From Isoptericola dokdonensis DS-3 (GTDB lineage Bacteria > Actinomycetota > Actinomycetes > Actinomycetales > Cellulomonadaceae): a stretch of 64,000 nucleotides of DNA. The stretch covers positions 2,418,001 to 2,482,000 of the forward strand of contig NZ_CP014209.1 in the NCBI RefSeq assembly GCF_001636295.1, in the 5' to 3' direction. The notes under the pieces were generated by a model. The model was not told the DNA's origin and did no database searches. It saw nothing but the letters and a program-made list of their open reading frames with translations. Within the stretch, counting starts at the first letter, position 1, and the number at the start of each line of letters is the position of its first letter. The translations under genes and the position numbers were made by a program. Of this stretch, positions 54,569 to 63,310 are shown piece by piece.

Positions 54569-55477
54569 ATGACGGCACCACCCGGCACACCTGCCGGCAC
54601 CCGCACCCCACCCACCCGGGCGTCCGTCCTGCGCACCGTGCCGCCCGACGAGTCCCTGCGCGTCGGCGTCGACGACCGCTTCACCAAGCCGCCGCGCCGG
54701 CCCGACCGCGGACGCCGCACCAAGGACCTCGCCGGGCGCGTCGCCGGCCCGCTGGCCGTCCTGCTGCTGTGGTGGCTCGCCACCGCGCTCGACTGGGTCT
54801 CCCCGCTCCTGCTGCCCTCGCCCGGCACCGTGCTCGCCACCGGCGTCGACCTCGTCACCTCCGGCGTCCTCGGCGAGAACCTCCTGGTCTCGCTCGGCCG
54901 CGCCGGCACCGGCCTCGTCATCGGCATCACCGTCGGCGTGCTGCTGGCCCTGCTGACCGGCCTCAGCCGCGTGGGCGAGCTGCTCATCGACTCGAACGTG
55001 CAGATGCTGCGCGCCATGCCGATCCTCGCGCTCCAGCCGCTCGTCATCGTCTGGTTCGGCATCGGGGAGCCCACCAAGATCCTGCTCGTCGCCCTCGCCG
55101 TGACGTTCCCCGTCTACATCAACACGCACGCCGCGATCCGCGCCGTCGACGTCCGCTTCGTCGAGCTCGCCCACACCGTCGACCTGTCGCGGTGGTCGCT
55201 CGTGCGCCGCGTCGTCCTGCCCGGCGCCCTGCCCGGGTTCCTCACCGGCCTGCGCTTCGCCACCGCGATCTCGTGGCTCGTGCTGGTCGTCGCCGAGCAG
55301 ATCAACGCCACCGCCGGCATCGGGTTCCTCATGACCCAGGCCCGCACCGTGGCCCGCACCGACGTCATCATCGTCGGCCTCGTCGTCTACGCCCTGCTGG
55401 GCCTGCTCTCCGACATCCTCGTCCGCACCCTCGAGAGGAAGGCGCTCGTATGGGCACCCCGACTGCAGGCACGCTGA
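54569..55477 (+). CDS. ABC permease for sulfate-ester/sulfonate-type importer
   Basis: A 302-residue permease with about six helices and a charged 50-residue N-terminal leader. LLLPSPGTVLATGVDL and ELAHTVDLSRWSLVRRVVLPGALPGFLTGL (coupling loop) are typical of SsuC/AtsB. It overlaps the ATPase gene by 28 nt. The operon's sulfatase suggests the cargo is a sulfate ester. Confidence 0.9.
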   Translation: MTAPPGTPAGTRTPPTRASVLRTVPPDESLRVGVDDRFTKPPRRPDRGRRTKDLAGRVAGPLAVLLLWWLATALDWVSPLLLPSPGTVLATGVDLVTSGVLGENLLVSLGRAGTGLVIGITVGVLLALLTGLSRVGELLIDSNVQMLRAMPILALQPLVIVWFGIGEPTKILLVALAVTFPVYINTHAAIRAVDVRFVELAHTVDLSRWSLVRRVVLPGALPGFLTGLRFATAISWLVLVVAEQINATAGIGFLMTQARTVARTDVIIVGLVVYALLGLLSDILVRTLERKALVWAPRLQAR

Positions 55478-56217
55478 GCACCTCGGCCGCCTCCCCCCGC
55501 CGCGACGGCGAGAGCCCCGTCGTCGTCGACGCCCGCGGCGTCGCCCGCTCCTTCGACGGCCGCGGCGTGCTGCACGACATCACGCTGCAGATCCGGCGCG
55601 GCGAGTTCGTCGCCCTGCTGGGCCGGTCCGGCTCCGGCAAGTCGACGCTGCTGCGGATCCTCGCCCAGCTCGACACGGAGCACGACGGCGACCTGCGCGT
55701 CCCGGAACGACGCGCCGTCGCGTTCCAGGACTCCCGGCTCCTGCCCTGGGCCCGCGTGCTGCCCAACGTGCTGCTCGGGCTCAAGGACGCCCGGAGCAGG
55801 GCCCGCGGCGAGGCCCTGCTCGCCGAGGTCGGGCTGGCCGACCACGCCAGGGCCTGGCCGAAGACCCTGTCGGGCGGCGAGCAGCAGCGCGTCGCCCTGG
55901 CCCGGGCGCTCGCCCGCGACCCCGAGCTGCTCCTCATGGACGAGCCGTTCGGCGCGCTGGACGCCCTGACCCGGATCCGCATGCACCGCCTGCTGCGGGG
56001 CCTCGTCGCACGGCACTCGCCCGGCGTCCTGCTCGTCACCCACGACGTCGACGAGGCCGTGCTGCTCGCCGACCGCGTCATCGTCCTCACCGACGGCCAC
56101 CTGTCGCTCGACGAGCCGATCGACCTCCCCGAGGTCGGGCGGCGCTCGCACCCCGGCTTCACCGCCCTGCGCTCCCGCCTGCTCACCGAGCTGGGCGTCG
56201 GCGACGACGACCACTGA
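55450..56217 (+). CDS. ABC ATPase for sulfate-ester/sulfonate-type importer
   Basis: A 255-residue ATPase: Walker A GRSGSGKST, AVAFQDSRLLPWARVLPNV, signature LSGGEQQRVALARAL, Walker B LLLMDEPFGALDALT. It belongs to the SsuB/AtsC branch. It lies between the permease and the binding protein. Confidence 0.91.
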   Translation: MGTPTAGTLSTSAASPRRDGESPVVVDARGVARSFDGRGVLHDITLQIRRGEFVALLGRSGSGKSTLLRILAQLDTEHDGDLRVPERRAVAFQDSRLLPWARVLPNVLLGLKDARSRARGEALLAEVGLADHARAWPKTLSGGEQQRVALARALARDPELLLMDEPFGALDALTRIRMHRLLRGLVARHSPGVLLVTHDVDEAVLLADRVIVLTDGHLSLDEPIDLPEVGRRSHPGFTALRSRLLTELGVGDDDH

Positions 56218-56260
56218 CCGACCGCACCCCCGACCCACCCGACAGAAGGGTTCCTCCGTC

Positions 56261-57292
56261 ATGCCCAGAACACGCCCGTCCGGCCCCCTCACCCGCCGGA
56301 CCGCACGGTCCGCCGCGGCCGCCGTCTCCGTCTCCGTCGTCGCGCTCGGCCTGGCCGCCTGCGGCGGTGACTCCGCCGCCACGGAGTCGGGCGAGGACGT
56401 CGTCCTGCGGGTCGGCGAGCTCGGCACCGCGATCACCCAGGAGACCCAGCTCGAGTCGGCGGGCGAGGGCGACGACCTCGGCTACGAGGTCGAGTACTCG
56501 CTGTTCGGCAACGGCCCGGCGTTCATGGAGGCGGTGCCGTCCGGCGCCGTCGACCTCGCGATCATGGCCGACACGCCGTCGATCTTCGCCCAGGTGGGGA
56601 ACATCCCCGTGAAGGTCGTCGCCGTCCAGGACACGCTGAAGGACGGCGAGTCGTTCGTCGAGATCGTCACGAACCCGGGCTCGGGGATCGAGTCGGTGGC
56701 CGATCTGGCCGGCAAGAGGGTCGCCGTCCAGCCGGCGACGATCCTCCAGTACACGATCGTCCGCGCCCTGGAGGCCGAGGGCCTGAGCTACGACGACATC
56801 ACCCCGGTCGAGCTGCCCCTGCCCGACGCCGCGGCCGCGCTGGCGAACGGCGACATCGACGCCGCGGCGTCCCTCGACCCCACGCTCCAGCAGCTCAAGG
56901 CGAACGGGGCCGTGACGATCGGGGACGGCGAGGGCTTCACCACCGGCTACTCGTACGTCGTCGCGACGGAGGCGGCGCTGGCCGACCCGGCGAAGGCGGA
57001 CGCCATCGGCGACTACCTGACCCGCCTGGGCCGCGCCTACGAGTGGGCGGCGGCCAACCCGGCCCGGTGGGCGGCGACGAGCTCGCAGCTCACCGGGCTG
57101 CCGGAGCCCATCGCGCTGGCCTCCCAGGAGCGGCGCGGCGCCGGCTGGGTGCCCCTCGACGACGACGTGATCGCCAAGCAGCAGGAGCAGGCCGACGTCT
57201 ACACGGCGCTCGGCCTGATCGCCGAGCCGCTCGACGTGTCCACGCAGTACGACGACCGCTACGACGACCTGCTGACCGGAGGCGACCAGTGA
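56261..57292 (+). CDS. ABC substrate-binding lipoprotein (SsuA/AtsR-like)
   Basis: A 343-residue binding protein with signal peptide and lipobox LAAC (Cys near residue 34). EYSLFGNGPAFMEAVPSGAVDLAIMADTPSI is the SsuA-type ligand region, and PDAAAALANGDIDAAASLDP the hinge side. It overlaps the sulfatase start by GTGA, tying uptake to hydrolysis. Confidence 0.88.
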   Translation: MPRTRPSGPLTRRTARSAAAAVSVSVVALGLAACGGDSAATESGEDVVLRVGELGTAITQETQLESAGEGDDLGYEVEYSLFGNGPAFMEAVPSGAVDLAIMADTPSIFAQVGNIPVKVVAVQDTLKDGESFVEIVTNPGSGIESVADLAGKRVAVQPATILQYTIVRALEAEGLSYDDITPVELPLPDAAAALANGDIDAAASLDPTLQQLKANGAVTIGDGEGFTTGYSYVVATEAALADPAKADAIGDYLTRLGRAYEWAAANPARWAATSSQLTGLPEPIALASQERRGAGWVPLDDDVIAKQQEQADVYTALGLIAEPLDVSTQYDDRYDDLLTGGDQ

Positions 57293-59607
57293 GCACCCAG
57301 CACCCCGACGTCCCCGCGGACGCCCGCGGCTACGAGCGGTTCCCCGGCCGGATCGGCGAGACGGTCGCCGACTCCACCCGGGCCTGGCCGCGCCCCCGCG
57401 GCGCCCGTCCCGGCGCCCCGAACGTCATCGTCGTCGTCCTCGACGACATGGGCTACTCCGACGTCGCCCCGTTCGGCTCGGAGATCGCCACGCCCACGCT
57501 GTCCGCGCTGGCGGACCGCGGCTACCGGCTGACGAACTATCACACGACGCCCGTCTGCTCCCCGGCGCGCGCCGCCCTGCTCACCGGGCTCAACCCCCAC
57601 CGGGCCGGGTTCGCGTCCGTCGCGAACTCCGACCCCGGGTTCCCCAACCTGCGCCTCGAGATCGACCCGGACGTCGCGACGCTGCCGGAGTCGCTGCGGG
57701 CCGCCGGGTACGCGACCTACGCGTTCGGCAAGTGGCACCTGACGCGCGACGCGCTCATGCACGACGGCGCCGACAAGGCGTCCTGGCCGCTCCAGCGCGG
57801 GTTCGACCACTTCTACGGGACGCTCGAGGGCTGCAACTCGTTCTTCCACCCGAACCAGCTCGTGCGGGACAACACGCCCGTCGACCAGGACGACCGTCCG
57901 GACGACTACTACCTGACCGACGACCTCACGGACGACGCGATCGCCCAGCTCGCGACGCTGCGCGCCCAGGAGCCGGACAAGCCGTTCTTCCTGTACTTCG
58001 CGCACCACGCGATGCACGGGCCGCTCGGCGCGAAGCCCGCGGACATCGCGGACCAGCGCGGCCGGTACGACGCCGGCTGGGACGAGGTGCGGCGTGCCCG
58101 CCACGCCCGCCAGCTCGAGCTCGGGCTGTTCCCGCCGAGCACCCCGCTGCCGCCGTCGGCCTCCGAGCCGGGCTTCGACGTGCCCGCGTGGGACTCGCTG
58201 CCCGCCGACACCCGCGACCTGTACGCCCGGTACATGGAGGTGTACGCCGCGATGGTGGCGAACGTCGACGAGAACCTGGGGCGGCTGCTCCAGGTCGTCG
58301 ACGACCTCGGCGAGCTCGACGACACGGTCGTCGTCTTCACCTCGGACAACGGCGGCACCGCCGAGGGTGGGCCCGAGGGCACCCGCTCGTACTTCTCGCG
58401 GTTCGTCCACATCGCGGGGCTCCCGCAGGACTGGGAGGCGGACGTCGAGCGTGAGCCGGACCTCATCGGTGGACCCCGCACGATGGTGCACTACCCGCGC
58501 GGCTGGGGGCAGGTGTCCAACACGCCGTTCCGGTTCTACAAGGGTCAGACCCACGCCGGTGGCGTGCGGGTGCCGTTCTTCGTGTCGTGGCCCGCCGGGA
58601 TCCCGCGCGCCGCCGACGACGACGGGCTGCGCCACCAGTACCAGTACGTCACCGACCTCACGCCGACGATCCTCGACCTCGTCGGGGCGGAGCGGCTGAC
58701 CGAGCGGCAGGGCCGCCCGACGCAGGAGATCGACGGGGTGTCGCTGCGCCCGGTCCTGGACGACGGCGGGGCCGCGTCCACCCACCCCGAGCAGTACGCC
58801 GAGTTCGGCGGGTCCCGCGGCTACTACCGCGACGGCTGGAAGCTCGTGTCCCTGCACACCCGCGGGCGTTCGCTCACGGAGCCGCAGTGGGAGCTCTACC
58901 ACGTGGACGCCGACCCGAACGAGCTCGTGGACCTCGCCGAGAAGGAGCCCGACCGGGTGGCCGAGTTCGCCGAGGCCTGGCGGGCCGCGGCCTGGCGCAA
59001 CACCGTGTTCCCGCTGGGCGCGTCGTTCACCCCGGGGCGTCGGCCCGCCGAGAAGGCGCTGGAGCGGCCCGTCCGGCTGCACCCCCGCACCCGCCGCCTG
59101 GAGCGGTACCGCTCCGCGAAGCTCACCTCGCTGCGGTCCTTCACCGTGGAGGCCGAGGTCACGGAGGCCGGCGACGGGTTCCTCGTCGCGCACGGCGACC
59201 AGGGCGGCGGCTACGCCCTGTACGTCGAGGACGGCGTGCTGCACCTCGCGTACAACGAGTACGGCCGCCTGCACGACGCACCGCTGGGCACGTTCGGCAC
59301 GGGCACCGTGCATGCCGCGTTCTCCTGGCTGCCGGACTTCCGGTGGAACATCGAGGTGAGCGTCGACGGCGAGGCCCGGGGCGGGCTCGCCGACGTCACC
59401 ATGCTGCTCGGCATGGCCCCGTTCAGCGGCATCGACGTGGGGGTGAACCGCGGCGGCCCCGTCCACTGGGACGTGTCGCAGCGGCACGGGTCGTTCCGGT
59501 TCTCCGGGCGGCTCCAGGGCGTCACCTACACGCCCGGCGAGCACGCCGCCTACGACCCGGAGCTCGTCGCCCAGGTCACCGAGGACGTCGCGGAGTTCTA
59601 CGACTGA
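57289..59607 (+). CDS. Type I sulfatase (arylsulfatase/alkylsulfatase-like)
   Basis: A 772-residue alkaline-phosphatase-fold sulfatase. Metal ligands D52-D53 (VLDDMGYSD), formylglycine site C90 in the consensus CSPAR ... LLTG, and FGKWHL, with FTSDNGG further on. A C-terminal jelly-roll-like domain (from about residue 620) follows. No signal peptide is seen, so it is cytoplasmic, as expected if the importer brings the ester in; a formylglycine-generating enzyme would be needed and is not in the window. The GTG start overlaps the binding-protein stop. Confidence 0.9.
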   Translation: MSTQHPDVPADARGYERFPGRIGETVADSTRAWPRPRGARPGAPNVIVVVLDDMGYSDVAPFGSEIATPTLSALADRGYRLTNYHTTPVCSPARAALLTGLNPHRAGFASVANSDPGFPNLRLEIDPDVATLPESLRAAGYATYAFGKWHLTRDALMHDGADKASWPLQRGFDHFYGTLEGCNSFFHPNQLVRDNTPVDQDDRPDDYYLTDDLTDDAIAQLATLRAQEPDKPFFLYFAHHAMHGPLGAKPADIADQRGRYDAGWDEVRRARHARQLELGLFPPSTPLPPSASEPGFDVPAWDSLPADTRDLYARYMEVYAAMVANVDENLGRLLQVVDDLGELDDTVVVFTSDNGGTAEGGPEGTRSYFSRFVHIAGLPQDWEADVEREPDLIGGPRTMVHYPRGWGQVSNTPFRFYKGQTHAGGVRVPFFVSWPAGIPRAADDDGLRHQYQYVTDLTPTILDLVGAERLTERQGRPTQEIDGVSLRPVLDDGGAASTHPEQYAEFGGSRGYYRDGWKLVSLHTRGRSLTEPQWELYHVDADPNELVDLAEKEPDRVAEFAEAWRAAAWRNTVFPLGASFTPGRRPAEKALERPVRLHPRTRRLERYRSAKLTSLRSFTVEAEVTEAGDGFLVAHGDQGGGYALYVEDGVLHLAYNEYGRLHDAPLGTFGTGTVHAAFSWLPDFRWNIEVSVDGEARGGLADVTMLLGMAPFSGIDVGVNRGGPVHWDVSQRHGSFRFSGRLQGVTYTPGEHAAYDPELVAQVTEDVAEFYD

Positions 59608-60178: not shown

Positions 60179-62434
60179 ATGGCGGAGCAGGCGTTCCTCG
60201 CCCCCGGCGCGGCCGTCGACCTCGACAACTGCGCGAGGGAACCGATCCACATCCCGGGGCTCGTGCAGCCCCGGGGGGCGCTCCTCGCCCTGCGCACCGA
60301 CGACGCCGTGGTCACCCAGTGCTCGGCCAACCTCGCCGACGTGCTCGGCATCAGCGCCGACGACGCCCTCGGGGCGCCGCTCGGCGACGTCCTGGGCGCC
60401 GACGCCGCCCGCACCGTCCTGGACCACGTCGCCGCCGGTGACCCGCGGCTGCGCAACCCGCTCGAGCTCGAGATCCCCGTGCAGGGGGTCGCGACGCGCT
60501 TCGAGGCGATGCTGCACCACGCTCCCTCGGCGAGCGGCCCCGGCCGCCCGCCCGTGCTCGTCGTCGAGCTCGAACCGTTCTCCGGGCACGCGTCCCTCAC
60601 CTACACGACCACCTACGAGCCGGTCCGCGACGCCCTCACCGCGCTCGACCGCGCCACGTCGATGGCCGAGCTCTACGAGGTCGCCGTGACCCGGGTCCGG
60701 GAGCTCACCGGCTTCGACCGCGTGATGCTCTACCACTTCGACGCCGACTACAACGGCGAGGTCGTCGCGGAGGCGAAGCGCGAGGACCTCAACGCGTTCC
60801 GCGGGCTGCACTACCCGGCGTCCGACATCCCCCCGCAGGCCCGCGCGCTGTACGAGAAGAACTGGATCCGGCTCATCTCGGACATCGGCTACACGCCCGT
60901 GCCGATCGTGCCGACCGACGACCCCGTGACGGGGCAGCCGCTGGACCTCACCTACTCGACCCTGCGCAGCGTCTCCCCCATCCACGTCGAGTACCTGCAG
61001 AACATGGGCGTCGGGGCGTCCATGTCGATCTCCCTGCTGCGCGACGGCCGCCTGTGGGGGCTCATCGCGTGCCACCACTACTCCGGCGCGCACGCGCCCT
61101 CGTACGCGGCACGCACCGCCGCGGAGTTCCTCGGGTCGGTGCTGTCGGTGCGCCTCGTCACGCAGGCGGAGGACGACCGCGCGTCGGCGGCGCGCCGCTC
61201 CGCCGGTGTCCTCGCCCGCCTGGTCGCGCTCACCCGTGACGACGACGTGCCCCTGGTGTCGGCGCTCACCGGCGACCCCGGGCTGCTCGACCTCGTGCCG
61301 GCCGACGGCGTGTTCGTCGCCGCGGAGGGACGCACCGCCCGGCAGGGCGCCGCCCCGGACGACGACGTCTGCCTGCGGCTGGCGCACGCCGTCGCCGACC
61401 TGGGCGTCGAGGTGCTGGTCACCGACCGGCTCGCCGCGGAGCACCCCGACCTCGCCGCGATCGTGCCCGACGCGGCCGGGCTGCTCGCGATCCGCGTGCC
61501 CGGCGGCGCCGCGGCCCTGTGGCTGCGCACCGAGGTGCTGCAGACCGTCGACTGGGGCGGGGACCCGCACAACAAGGCGATCGCCCGGCGTGAGGGCGAC
61601 ACGGTGCGGCTCTCCCCGCGCAGGTCGTTCGACCGGTGGCGCGAGGTCGTGCGGGGCACCAGCGAGCCGTGGACGGAGGAGCAGGTGGACGTCGCCACGT
61701 CCCTGCGCTCGTACCTCGGGGAGGGGCTGCTGCTGCGCGGGCGCCGGGACATCCGCGCCGCCACCACCCTGCAGCGCAGCCTCCTGCCCACGTCCCTGCC
61801 CGAGGTGGACGGCTGGACCGTCGAGGCCCTGTACGCACCCTCCGGCGGCGGCCTCGCGGGTGGCGACTGGTACGACGCGCTGCCACTGGGGGACGGACGT
61901 GTCGTCCTCAGCGTCGGCGACGTGTCCGGGCACGGGCTCGGCGCCGCCGCCACCATGGGACAGCTGCGCAACGCCCTGCGTGCGCTGCTGCTCAGCGGGA
62001 GCGACCTCGTCCAGGCCGTCGCGCAGGTCGACCACCTGCTCCGGGCCACGCTGCCCGGCCAGGCGGCGACGCTCGTGCTGGCGGCGGTCGAACCCGGGTC
62101 GGACGACGTCACCTACGTGACCGCCGGCCACCCGCCACCCGTCGTGGTGGGACCCGACGGCGCGCACGTCGCGGACGTCCTGCGCGAGCCGCCGCTCGGC
62201 GTCGGTCGGCGCGCGGGCCGGTCCGGGTCGGTGCACGTCGGCCCCGGCGGGGCCGTCGTGCTGTTCAGCGACGGGCTCGTGGAGCGCCGCGACGAGTCGA
62301 TCGTCGACTCCCTGGAGCGGCTCCGGGTCGCCGCGACGCAGACCCTCGACCCGGCCGGGCTGGTCGCCCGCGTCCGGGCGCCGTCGTCGGGCGACGACGC
62401 CACCGTCGTGGTCGTACGCCGCGCGACGACCTGA
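60179..62434 (+). CDS. Bacteriophytochrome fused to SpoIIE/PP2C serine phosphatase
   Basis: A 751-residue photoreceptor phosphatase. The biliverdin Cys is C18 in CAREPIHIPGLVQPRG (PAS domain, about 10-110); the GAF domain (about 150-310) has PASDIPPQAR with the DIP motif and the two chromophore-contact His in SPIHVEYLQNMGVG and ACHHY; the PHY domain (about 340-510) carries WGGDP and the tongue PRxSF (LSPRRSF). The C-terminal 220 residues are a PP2C/SpoIIE domain with GGDWYDA and GDVSGHG. It should dephosphorylate the anti-anti-sigma factor encoded nearby in a light-dependent way. GAGGAGG lies 4 nt upstream. Confidence 0.93.
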   Translation: MAEQAFLAPGAAVDLDNCAREPIHIPGLVQPRGALLALRTDDAVVTQCSANLADVLGISADDALGAPLGDVLGADAARTVLDHVAAGDPRLRNPLELEIPVQGVATRFEAMLHHAPSASGPGRPPVLVVELEPFSGHASLTYTTTYEPVRDALTALDRATSMAELYEVAVTRVRELTGFDRVMLYHFDADYNGEVVAEAKREDLNAFRGLHYPASDIPPQARALYEKNWIRLISDIGYTPVPIVPTDDPVTGQPLDLTYSTLRSVSPIHVEYLQNMGVGASMSISLLRDGRLWGLIACHHYSGAHAPSYAARTAAEFLGSVLSVRLVTQAEDDRASAARRSAGVLARLVALTRDDDVPLVSALTGDPGLLDLVPADGVFVAAEGRTARQGAAPDDDVCLRLAHAVADLGVEVLVTDRLAAEHPDLAAIVPDAAGLLAIRVPGGAAALWLRTEVLQTVDWGGDPHNKAIARREGDTVRLSPRRSFDRWREVVRGTSEPWTEEQVDVATSLRSYLGEGLLLRGRRDIRAATTLQRSLLPTSLPEVDGWTVEALYAPSGGGLAGGDWYDALPLGDGRVVLSVGDVSGHGLGAAATMGQLRNALRALLLSGSDLVQAVAQVDHLLRATLPGQAATLVLAAVEPGSDDVTYVTAGHPPPVVVGPDGAHVADVLREPPLGVGRRAGRSGSVHVGPGGAVVLFSDGLVERRDESIVDSLERLRVAATQTLDPAGLVARVRAPSSGDDATVVVVRRATT

Positions 62435-62435
62435 C

Positions 62436-62453
62436 GCCCACCCCGCGGTGGGC
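62436..62453. terminator. Short hairpin between convergent genes
   Basis: GCCCACC (62436-62442) and GGTGGGC (62447-62453) with a 4-nt loop fill the 23-nt gap between the phytochrome and kinase stops. Confidence 0.5.
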
Positions 62454-62457
62454 GCCG

Positions 62458-62907
62458 TCAGACCACGGCGGGTGTTGCCGCGCGGACCCGGAACCGGGCC
62501 CACACGTGCTTGGCGCCGTCGGTGGTGAACCAGCCCACGGCGTCCGCGAGGCGCACGACGAGCTGCATGCCGAAGCCGCCGCCACCGCGGGTGCTGCCCT
62601 CGTCGATCCGGGGCGCCGTGGACGGCTTGCGGTCCTGCACCTCCAGCAGGAACCCGTCCGGGCGGGCGCTCAGGCGGACCAGCGCGGCGCCGTCACCGTG
62701 CTGCAGCGCGTTCGTCGCGAGCTCGCTGGCGACGAGCAGGACCGACTCGGGGATCTCCTCCAGGCTGGGCCGACCGCCCGGCGCCGGAGGCAGTGACGCG
62801 ACCAGGTCGGCGCGCAGGACAGCCAGGTCGTCGAGCGTCCGCAAGGGCCAGGCGCGGACCTCGGTGAACCCGTCCGGCGCGGGCGAGGCGGCGAGTCGAG
62901 GTGCCAT
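62458..62907 (-). CDS. RsbW-like anti-sigma serine kinase (HATPase)
   Basis: A 149-residue GHKL ATPase: N box SELATNALQHGDG, D in LEVQDRKP, and GGGGFGMQLVVRLAD. Such proteins bind a sigma factor or phosphorylate a STAS antagonist. The ATG at 62907 has AGAGGA about 8 nt upstream; an ATG at 62913 is the alternative. It lies 16 nt after the STAS gene on the same strand and converges with the phytochrome phosphatase. Confidence 0.88.
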   Translation of the reverse strand: MAPRLAASPAPDGFTEVRAWPLRTLDDLAVLRADLVASLPPAPGGRPSLEEIPESVLLVASELATNALQHGDGAALVRLSARPDGFLLEVQDRKPSTAPRIDEGSTRGGGGFGMQLVVRLADAVGWFTTDGAKHVWARFRVRAATPAVV

Positions 62908-62923
62908 GATCATGTTCCTCTCG

Positions 62924-63274
62924 TCAGCTCTGCAGGACGAACAGCGTATCCACCCCGCTGAGCCGCAGCAGGTCGAGGACCTTCGGGGGCGTCCCCACCA
63001 GCACCGGAGGGGTCGGCTTCGCCGCGGCCGCGTCGTAGAGCAGCCGCAGCCCGCCCGAGTCGAGGAACGTGACCTCCGTCAGGTCGACCGTCAGGGCCTC
63101 GTCCGCCGTCTGGCGCAGGTGCGACGCGAGCTCCGGCGCCACCCGCGTCTGCACCGCGGCGTCCACCTCGCCCCACATGGTCCAGCGGGCGCGCCCCGGG
63201 TCCACGCGGACACCGCCGTGCGTCACCTTCTCGTCCACCGTCACTCCGTCCGGGCCTGCCAGCATCGCGACCAT
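62924..63274 (-). CDS. STAS-domain anti-sigma factor antagonist
   Basis: A 116-residue STAS protein. The phosphorylatable Ser is in TFLDSGGLRLLYDA (conserved DSxG), preceded by VDLTEV. It should be phosphorylated by the RsbW-like kinase and dephosphorylated by the phytochrome-PP2C. The ATG at 63274 is preferred because a TATAGG -10 box ends exactly 7 nt upstream; GTG at 63277 is in frame. Confidence 0.88.
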   Translation of the reverse strand: MVAMLAGPDGVTVDEKVTHGGVRVDPGRARWTMWGEVDAAVQTRVAPELASHLRQTADEALTVDLTEVTFLDSGGLRLLYDAAAAKPTPPVLVGTPPKVLDLLRLSGVDTLFVLQS

Positions 63275-63281
63275 CACGACC

Positions 63282-63310
63282 CCTATATCTTGCCGGACGG
63301 TCGGTCACAA
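63282..63310 (-). promoter_or_regulatory. Leaderless promoter of the STAS-kinase pair
   Basis: On the minus strand TTGTGA (63310-63305), a 17-nt spacer and TATAGG (63287-63282) form a housekeeping-type promoter; 7 nt separate it from the STAS ATG. The -35 box overlaps the stop codon of the upstream oxidoreductase. Confidence 0.6.

Follow-up and report, generated by a model that had tools for sequence, protein, structure and literature searches.

The 64,000-nucleotide stretch of Isoptericola dokdonensis DS-3 DNA analyzed here (referred to as the window; positions 2418001-2482000 of the complete 3.83 Mb genome G000, a single contig) contains a gene coding for a bacteriophytochrome fused to a SpoIIE-type PP2C phosphatase, followed by convergent genes for an RsbW-like kinase and a STAS-domain protein. 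These genes probably represent a light-gated partner switch, composed of the phytochrome-phosphatase fusion, the STAS protein, the kinase, and a putative third partner which is not of the SigB/F type. An earlier note on this DNA had proposed that red/far-red light sets the phosphorylation state of the STAS protein and thereby the activity of a sigma factor. The part of this proposal in which a biliverdin-type phytochrome gates a PP2C phosphatase acting on the neighbouring STAS/kinase pair is supported by sequence comparison, because of the conserved residues, the fixed linker, the recurrence of STAS, kinase and heme oxygenase genes as neighbours and the co-occurrence of kinase and fusion, whereas a sigma factor step of the SigB/F type was not borne out. 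The features of the locus are as follows.

60179..62434, + strand: bacteriophytochrome-SpoIIE phosphatase fusion (P0001, 751 amino acids); Pfam PAS_2-GAF-PHY-SpoIIE, AGGAGG before the start codon
60230..60232, + strand: Cys18 codon, the residue expected to attach biliverdin, from the alignment
60230..61720, + strand: PAS-GAF-PHY photosensory module (residues 18-514), from Pfam and structure matches
61676..61783, + strand: continuous output helix leading from PHY to the phosphatase (residues 500-535), predicted in AlphaFold2 model m249349627b47 and consistent with a fixed spacing
61892..62422, + strand: SpoIIE/RsbU-type PP2C phosphatase domain (Pfam residues 572-748), Asp residues kept
62436..62453, no strand assigned: GC-rich hairpin between the convergent genes, a possible shared terminator without a T run, from its folding energy
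62458..62907, - strand: SpoIIAB/RsbW-like Ser kinase (P0002, 149 amino acids); HATPase_c_2 over the cut-off, invariant motifs, fold match
62924..63274, - strand: STAS-domain antagonist (P0003, at most 116 amino acids); STAS_2 and STAS over the cut-offs, DS[GSA]GLR motif, profile matches to SpoIIAA and RsbV

Domains and conserved residues of the three proteins

The fusion protein contains all four expected Pfam domains at scores over their cut-offs, namely PAS_2 (residues 18-133, 70.8 bits, cut-off 21.4), GAF (163-305, 54.8 bits, cut-off 22.4), PHY (348-514, 138.4 bits, cut-off 27) and SpoIIE (572-748, 129.6 bits, cut-off 25), as the earlier note had read from the letters. A histidine-kinase domain was not detected with Pfam at E 0.01, and the protein also misses the NCBIfam equivalog model for BphP histidine kinases, NF041576 (354.4 bits vs 1040), with residues 11-513 aligned. 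The solved structures most similar to the photosensory module are phytochromes, both by sequence (best 60 of 122 matches) and by fold (best 50 of 1247 matches), and no further PHY protein was found in the genome.

Residue conservation was assessed in an alignment of 202 rows, consisting of the window protein, 120 database proteins and 81 loci (80 related loci plus that of the window again), which correspond to 185 distinct sequences. Y185, D216 of the DIP motif, R231, R263, H269, Y272, and H299 are present in all 202 rows, as are R481, S483, and F484 of the PRxSF tongue motif; the His, Tyr and other residues beyond Cys18, DIP and PRxSF are taken by us to line the chromophore pocket. The phosphatase residues D563, D566, and D581 are likewise found in 202 of 202 rows, and D698, D739, and D740 in 201 with one gap; they presumably serve as metal ligands. 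The first two belong to a GGDWYD motif at residues 561-566, located just ahead of the Pfam SpoIIE match. Cys18 is present in 198 rows, the remaining four showing gaps because they start downstream of this position; an apparent loss of Cys18 in L064, L040, L045, and P0065 was rejected accordingly, since the predicted starts of the first three are too late and P0065 begins downstream. The attachment-site Cys, DIP and PRxSF are named as chromophore-related features of the PadC diguanylate cyclases in PMC9587094 (as for all papers cited here, this refers to the available parts of the text), and by analogy with these proteins Cys18 is expected to be the biliverdin attachment site.

The AlphaFold2 model of the fusion (predicted local distance difference test, pLDDT, 85.1) shows a single helix of residues 500-535 running from the PHY domain to the phosphatase, with residues 1-20 and most of the tongue (463-487) at pLDDT values under 50. 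The spacing between PRxSF..W and GGDWYD amounts to 73 residues in 183 of the 185 distinct sequences, and to 72 and 74 in one each. PadC-like linker lengths varying in multiples of seven are ruled out by this practically invariant distance. Because the spacing is fixed, signal transfer through a register-fixed helix appears plausible from the model, which would be in line with the linker mechanism described in PMC12143880.

The kinase scores 32.8 bits with the Pfam model HATPase_c_2 (cut-off 27.4), and its residues E62, N66, D92, and G110/G111/G113, presumably representing the N-box and the G-box, are unchanged in 22 of 22 aligned sequences. Its predicted structure (pLDDT 86.7) matches best with SpoIIAB and RsbW among the folds in the PDB, although its sequence profile gave no match to solved structures at E 0.001; altogether, the protein is assigned by sequence and model as an RsbW/SpoIIAB-like GHKL fold with both boxes. 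The STAS protein is over the cut-offs of both STAS_2 (44.1 bits, cut-off 29.2) and STAS (32.6 bits, cut-off 22.6), contains a DS[GSA]GLR motif with Ser73 unchanged in 19 of 19 aligned sequences, and matches SpoIIAA and RsbV with its profile, which identifies it by sequence as an RsbV/SpoIIAA-type antagonist with a predicted phosphorylatable Ser. The protein may in fact begin some residues later, as most of its aligned relatives do; position 63310, where the earlier note had placed the end of the locus, lies slightly past the STAS gene. The two convergent genes named there were thus recovered at the level of Pfam models and of the kinase fold.

The window itself contains neither a sigma factor nor a heme oxygenase, as had been noted before, if judged with the Sigma70_r2 and Heme_oxygenase models. 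The genome encodes a single match to Heme_oxygenase, at 2868737; after it come the genes of a periplasmic binding protein, a FecCD permease, and an ATPase passing the cut-off for heme transporters.

Distribution, linkage and co-occurrence

The phytochrome-SpoIIE fusion is widespread in Actinobacteria. A protein search, in which 7,990 candidates were scored, yielded 4,485 matches at E 0.001, and all of the best 120 share the four domains; among these listed matches, the closest named relatives are from Isoptericola (89% identity to a protein of I. jiangsuensis), and a 99% identical match is found on a metagenome contig. When genome contigs were scanned, 239 relatives could be confirmed, and the 80 best ones (L010-L089) were kept for comparison. 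They come from Isoptericola, Cellulosimicrobium, Oerskovia, Cellulomonas, Sanguibacter, Georgenia, Mycobacterium/Mycolicibacterium, Blastococcus, Modestobacter, and other genera, and the fusion is present in 52 of 121 sampled genomes of the family of the window's organism.

As judged from tblastn searches of these best 80 of 239 loci, genes for a STAS protein and/or a kinase adjoin the fusion in 31 cases, in five different gene orders. The order of the window (A: fusion, then convergent kinase and STAS genes) recurs in 15 loci (L010-L019, L021-L024, and L027), with about 1.2 kb between the genes in L014. In three loci (B: L020, L031, and L038) a convergent STAS gene is followed by a kinase gene on the strand of the fusion, while one locus (C: L025) has STAS and kinase genes upstream and a second kinase gene downstream, all on one strand. 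Mycobacterial loci show either a divergent STAS gene upstream (D: L040, L041, L045, L046, L048, L062, L064, and L068) or convergent STAS and kinase genes in this order (E: L057, L059, L063, and L066). The STAS and kinase proteins of L031 and L057, the STAS protein of L040 and one kinase of L025, where one of the two was checked, are over their Pfam cut-offs. Matches not counted as neighbours comprise a STAS/kinase pair about 3.4 kb upstream in L043 and weaker or more distant ones in L026, L074, and L078. Because the association recurs in different gene orders, a working link of the fusion with the STAS/kinase pair is suggested rather than mere common descent. The chance of encountering a STAS_2 or an HATPase_c_2 gene among the four neighbours of the fusion is about 1.0% and 1.3%, respectively, if estimated from the genome's match counts for both models (including those of the window) at an assumed 1,060 bp per gene; together with the recurrence of the linkage in other genomes, these low values argue against a chance arrangement.

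A second type of neighbour is connected with chromophore supply: of the 80 loci, 18 have a heme-oxygenase-type gene immediately beside the fusion, 10 of them mycobacterial and 8 from Geodermatophilaceae (one member per group was tested with Pfam, the second being barely over the cut-off), and such a gene lies within about 3 kb of the fusion in at least five of 14 further loci of the family (L145, L152, L153, L154, and L158).

The three components also co-occur at the level of genomes. A close relative of the kinase is encoded in 49 of the 52 family genomes with the fusion vs 8 of the 69 without, and a close relative of the STAS protein in 38 of 52 vs 2 of 69. Relatives were regarded as close at 118 bits or more for the kinase and 100 bits or more for the STAS protein, cuts that were chosen after the match lists had been viewed; the next lower matches are at 72.9 bits for the kinase and, in a genome already counted, at 93.4 bits for STAS, with up to 32 and 40 candidates, respectively, scored per genome. 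The 52 genomes include three (G052, G134, and G153) with a form of the fusion without light-sensing residues. The association of kinase and fusion persists if stratified by genus (z = 4.4), a procedure dealing only partly with the relatedness of the genomes, since those within a genus are not independent. In 36 of the kinase-bearing fusion genomes, the kinase gene is adjacent to the fusion.

Within the window, the kinase gene lies 23 bases past the stop codon of the fusion, and the STAS gene lies 16 bases upstream of the kinase gene on the same strand; the GC contents at third codon positions of the fusion, kinase and STAS frames are 0.97, 0.92, and 0.95. The hairpin between the convergent genes has a folding energy of -22.1 kcal/mol over 46 nt (z -2.35), and scans of the locus with promoter and terminator patterns gave no match, the terminator pattern requiring a T run. 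A glyoxalase-like gene precedes the fusion gene, and upstream on the minus strand is a nitroreductase-like (deazaflavin) gene slightly under the model cut-offs. Upstream of the locus (54769-59607), the translated open reading frames suggest, as read by eye, the ATPase of an ABC transporter, a gene resembling those of periplasmic binding proteins and a large sulfatase-like gene.

Proposed mechanism and its alternatives

In the proposed mechanism, the fusion would bind biliverdin provided by the heme oxygenase of the genome, and its red/far-red-absorbing (Pr/Pfr) state would be passed on via the helix of residues 500-535 to set the activity of a presumably dimeric PP2C phosphatase, light control and its sign being assumed. 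The phosphatase would dephosphorylate the adjacent STAS protein, its putative substrate, at the serine that the adjacent RsbW-like kinase would phosphorylate. Unphosphorylated STAS protein would capture the kinase and thereby free a postulated third partner.

The nature of this partner was approached by searching for sigma factors. The SigB/F/G model TIGR02980 gave no match over its cut-off of 234.35 in the complete genome; the best one (425031-425714, 133.8 bits) belongs to a gene read as the primary (housekeeping) sigma factor, which is also the only place where region 3 (Sigma70_r3) was detected. ECF (extracytoplasmic function) sigma factors are not known to contain Sigma70_r3. Of the 19 Sigma70_r2 matches in the genome, 13 were read, consisting of the housekeeping factor, 11 loci inspected by eye (one of which, L118, is an ECF factor with SnoaL according to Pfam), and one ECF-like protein, and those beyond the housekeeping factor are ECF-type. 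A SigB/F-like factor hidden among the 19 matches was considered and not seen in the 13 read, region 3 being confined to the housekeeping factor. Three of the four parts of a SigB-type partner-switching module are present at the locus, with no SigB/F-type factor found in the genome, and TIGR02980 and Sigma70_r3 revealed no SigB/F-family partner for an RsbW/SpoIIAB protein in the complete genome.

The same model was applied to 50 of the 80 fusion-bearing genomes. Matches over the cut-off were obtained in all 17 genomes of mycobacteria (9) and Geodermatophilaceae (8), and in none of the 33 others, which we take to be Micrococcales and many of which are drafts. A further full-length match below the cut-off (81-129 bits) is present in 18 of these 33 (among them genomes of L018-L040); among the 15 genomes with the gene order of the window, one has such a match (G014, 88 bits). 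Since no SigB/F/G match is over the cut-off and region 3 occurs solely in the housekeeping factor, the classical SigB/F end-point was not found in the lineage of the window, and the partner switch may instead act on an ECF factor, on RpoD or on a protein other than a sigma factor. A more far-reaching version, to be regarded as tentative, is that the kinase-STAS pair now serves a different target, perhaps not a sigma factor, and thus creates a new red-light output, with three relatives of the fusion rewired off light, one of them beside L-rhamnose genes.

It appears rather unlikely that the kinase acts as an anti-sigma factor and in this way places a dedicated alternative sigma factor under the control of light. 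The components are indeed those of SigB/SpoIIA switches, and the classical model may hold in the mycobacteria and Geodermatophilaceae with their SigB/F/G matches in 17 of 17 genomes; moreover, an ECF gene stands beside a GAF-SpoIIE-HATPase gene elsewhere in the genome. In the genome of the window, however, the SigB/F/G model fits the housekeeping factor best, which stays below the cut-off and alone has region 3, and the 33 Micrococcales genomes, partly drafts, yielded none over the cut-off, their further full-length matches notwithstanding.

The ECF gene mentioned belongs to L129:2021-5461 (genome 2919020-2922460), where a GAF-GAF-SpoIIE-HATPase gene is followed after 42 bases by an ECF-SnoaL sigma gene, possibly forming an ECF-directed partner switch. 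Another gene run (L130:3047-9053, genome 3029546-3035552), with two STAS-type matches below the cut-off, two HATPase-type proteins, a hybrid histidine kinase, and a receiver-SpoIIE protein, is reminiscent of an RsbR/S/T/U cluster.

Of the 14 further loci of the family, 13 (all except L156) were included in a residue comparison. Three of the proteins, with 44-45% identity to the fusion, have lost Cys18, H269, Y272, R231, and PRxSF (L146:6031-8310 and L147:5997-8258 from the genus of the window, and L148:5990-8260 from another genus). They retain H299 and, in two of the three, D216, keep all six PP2C Asp residues and are accompanied by convergent kinase and STAS genes; the L147 protein is still over the Pfam cut-offs for PAS_2, GAF, PHY, and SpoIIE. 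As phosphatase, kinase and STAS protein are kept, the output hardware can outlive the light sensor. Near the fusion gene of L148 are an L-rhamnose isomerase gene (over the cut-off) and a rhamnulokinase-like gene (below the cut-off). RsbW-like kinase genes without a phytochrome are also found near an L-rhamnose mutarotase gene in the genome of the window (L170:5796-6290, around 1955325, encoding a second such kinase) and, as read by eye, beside rhamnulokinase-like genes in two other genomes (L167:5702-6298 and L168:5617-6273).

These three relatives would fit a phytochrome scaffold that relays another signal, either instead of light or in addition to it, the chromophore being incidental. This is improbable for the window protein, which keeps the checked pocket residues together with its close homologues, and is at odds with the recurrence of heme oxygenase as a neighbour of the fusion.

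Several observations weigh against the fusion and the pair forming a light-gated switch. Of the 80 loci, 49 are without a counted STAS or kinase neighbour, the kinase is encoded only away from the fusion in 13 of the 49 genomes that have it along with the fusion, and close relatives of the kinase and the STAS protein are missing from 3 and 14 of the 52 fusion genomes, respectively. A STAS-kinase pair of the window type occurs without the fusion at L159:5700-6471 and L160:5706-6480, in the genomes of L146 and L147, with kinases grouping with those of gene order A. Cross-talk is possible as well, because the genome of the window contains six SpoIIE matches over the cut-off beyond the fusion and eight STAS_2 matches beyond P0003, four of them over the cut-off. 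Yet the view suggested by the persisting pairs and by the other STAS, SpoIIE, and kinase genes, namely that other cellular STAS proteins are the targets of the fusion and the pair beside it is an independent switch that has stayed close solely through descent, is improbable, as STAS and kinase genes stand beside the fusion in several different orders and the kinase co-varies with it within genera.

Relation to known systems

Proteins combining PAS-GAF-PHY with a SpoIIE/PPM phosphatase form one class of phytochrome effectors in the distance tree of PMC9587094. In the parts of that paper considered, neither a substrate nor associated genes or a function are stated for the class; the present analysis contributes the partner genes, their linkage to the fusion and the lack of a SigB/F match. 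The switch resembles the RsbU/RsbP-RsbV-RsbW-SigB system of Bacillus (PMC12143880) in consisting of a PP2C phosphatase with an N-terminal helical linker, a STAS antagonist and an RsbW-type kinase, and coiled-coil linkers have been proposed in the same paper as exchangeable control elements of PP2C, GGDEF, and kinase outputs. Unlike RsbU and RsbP, the phosphatase has a phytochrome as sensor instead of being regulated by RsbT or RsbQ, and no SigB-family factor was found in the genome. The closest solved relative of the phosphatase domain by sequence is the RsbU-RsbW protein Rv1364c (PDB 3ke6), which also matches the kinase model; it combines kinase and phosphatase in one chain, whereas they are encoded by separate genes here.

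As with the LOV-STAS protein YtvA feeding into SigB (PMC3019169, PMC4844311), light would enter a STAS/partner-switch pathway without a histidine kinase, but YtvA is a blue-light flavin sensor fused to STAS within the stressosome, while a bilin-type sensor is fused to the phosphatase here. The fusion shares with the PadC diguanylate cyclases (PMC9587094) a helical linker joining phytochrome and output domain, yet the PadC linkers vary, 54% of them differing by multiples of seven, and the spacing of the fusion is fixed. STAS and SpoIIE proteins have been named as possible partners of a B12/bilin photoreceptor (PMC10979010), and a cyanobacterial GAF-SpoIIE phosphatase appears in PMC9430166, but neither of these, in the text available, is a phytochrome-SpoIIE protein. 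A literature search, with subscription papers mostly outside its coverage, found no work on the function of phytochrome-SpoIIE proteins or of a partner switch driven by a phytochrome. Known before are the parts and the catalogued fusion; new are the unstudied pathway and the finding of no SigB/F-family factor in the lineage of the window.

If the pathway works as proposed, it would join a well-studied type of red-light receptor to partner switching and would provide a phosphatase naturally controlled by red and far-red light. As no SigB/F factor was found, the testable question arises what an RsbW-like kinase holds if such a sigma factor is missing, and the relatives without light-sensing residues represent a natural control by which the input of light can be distinguished from signalling by the scaffold.

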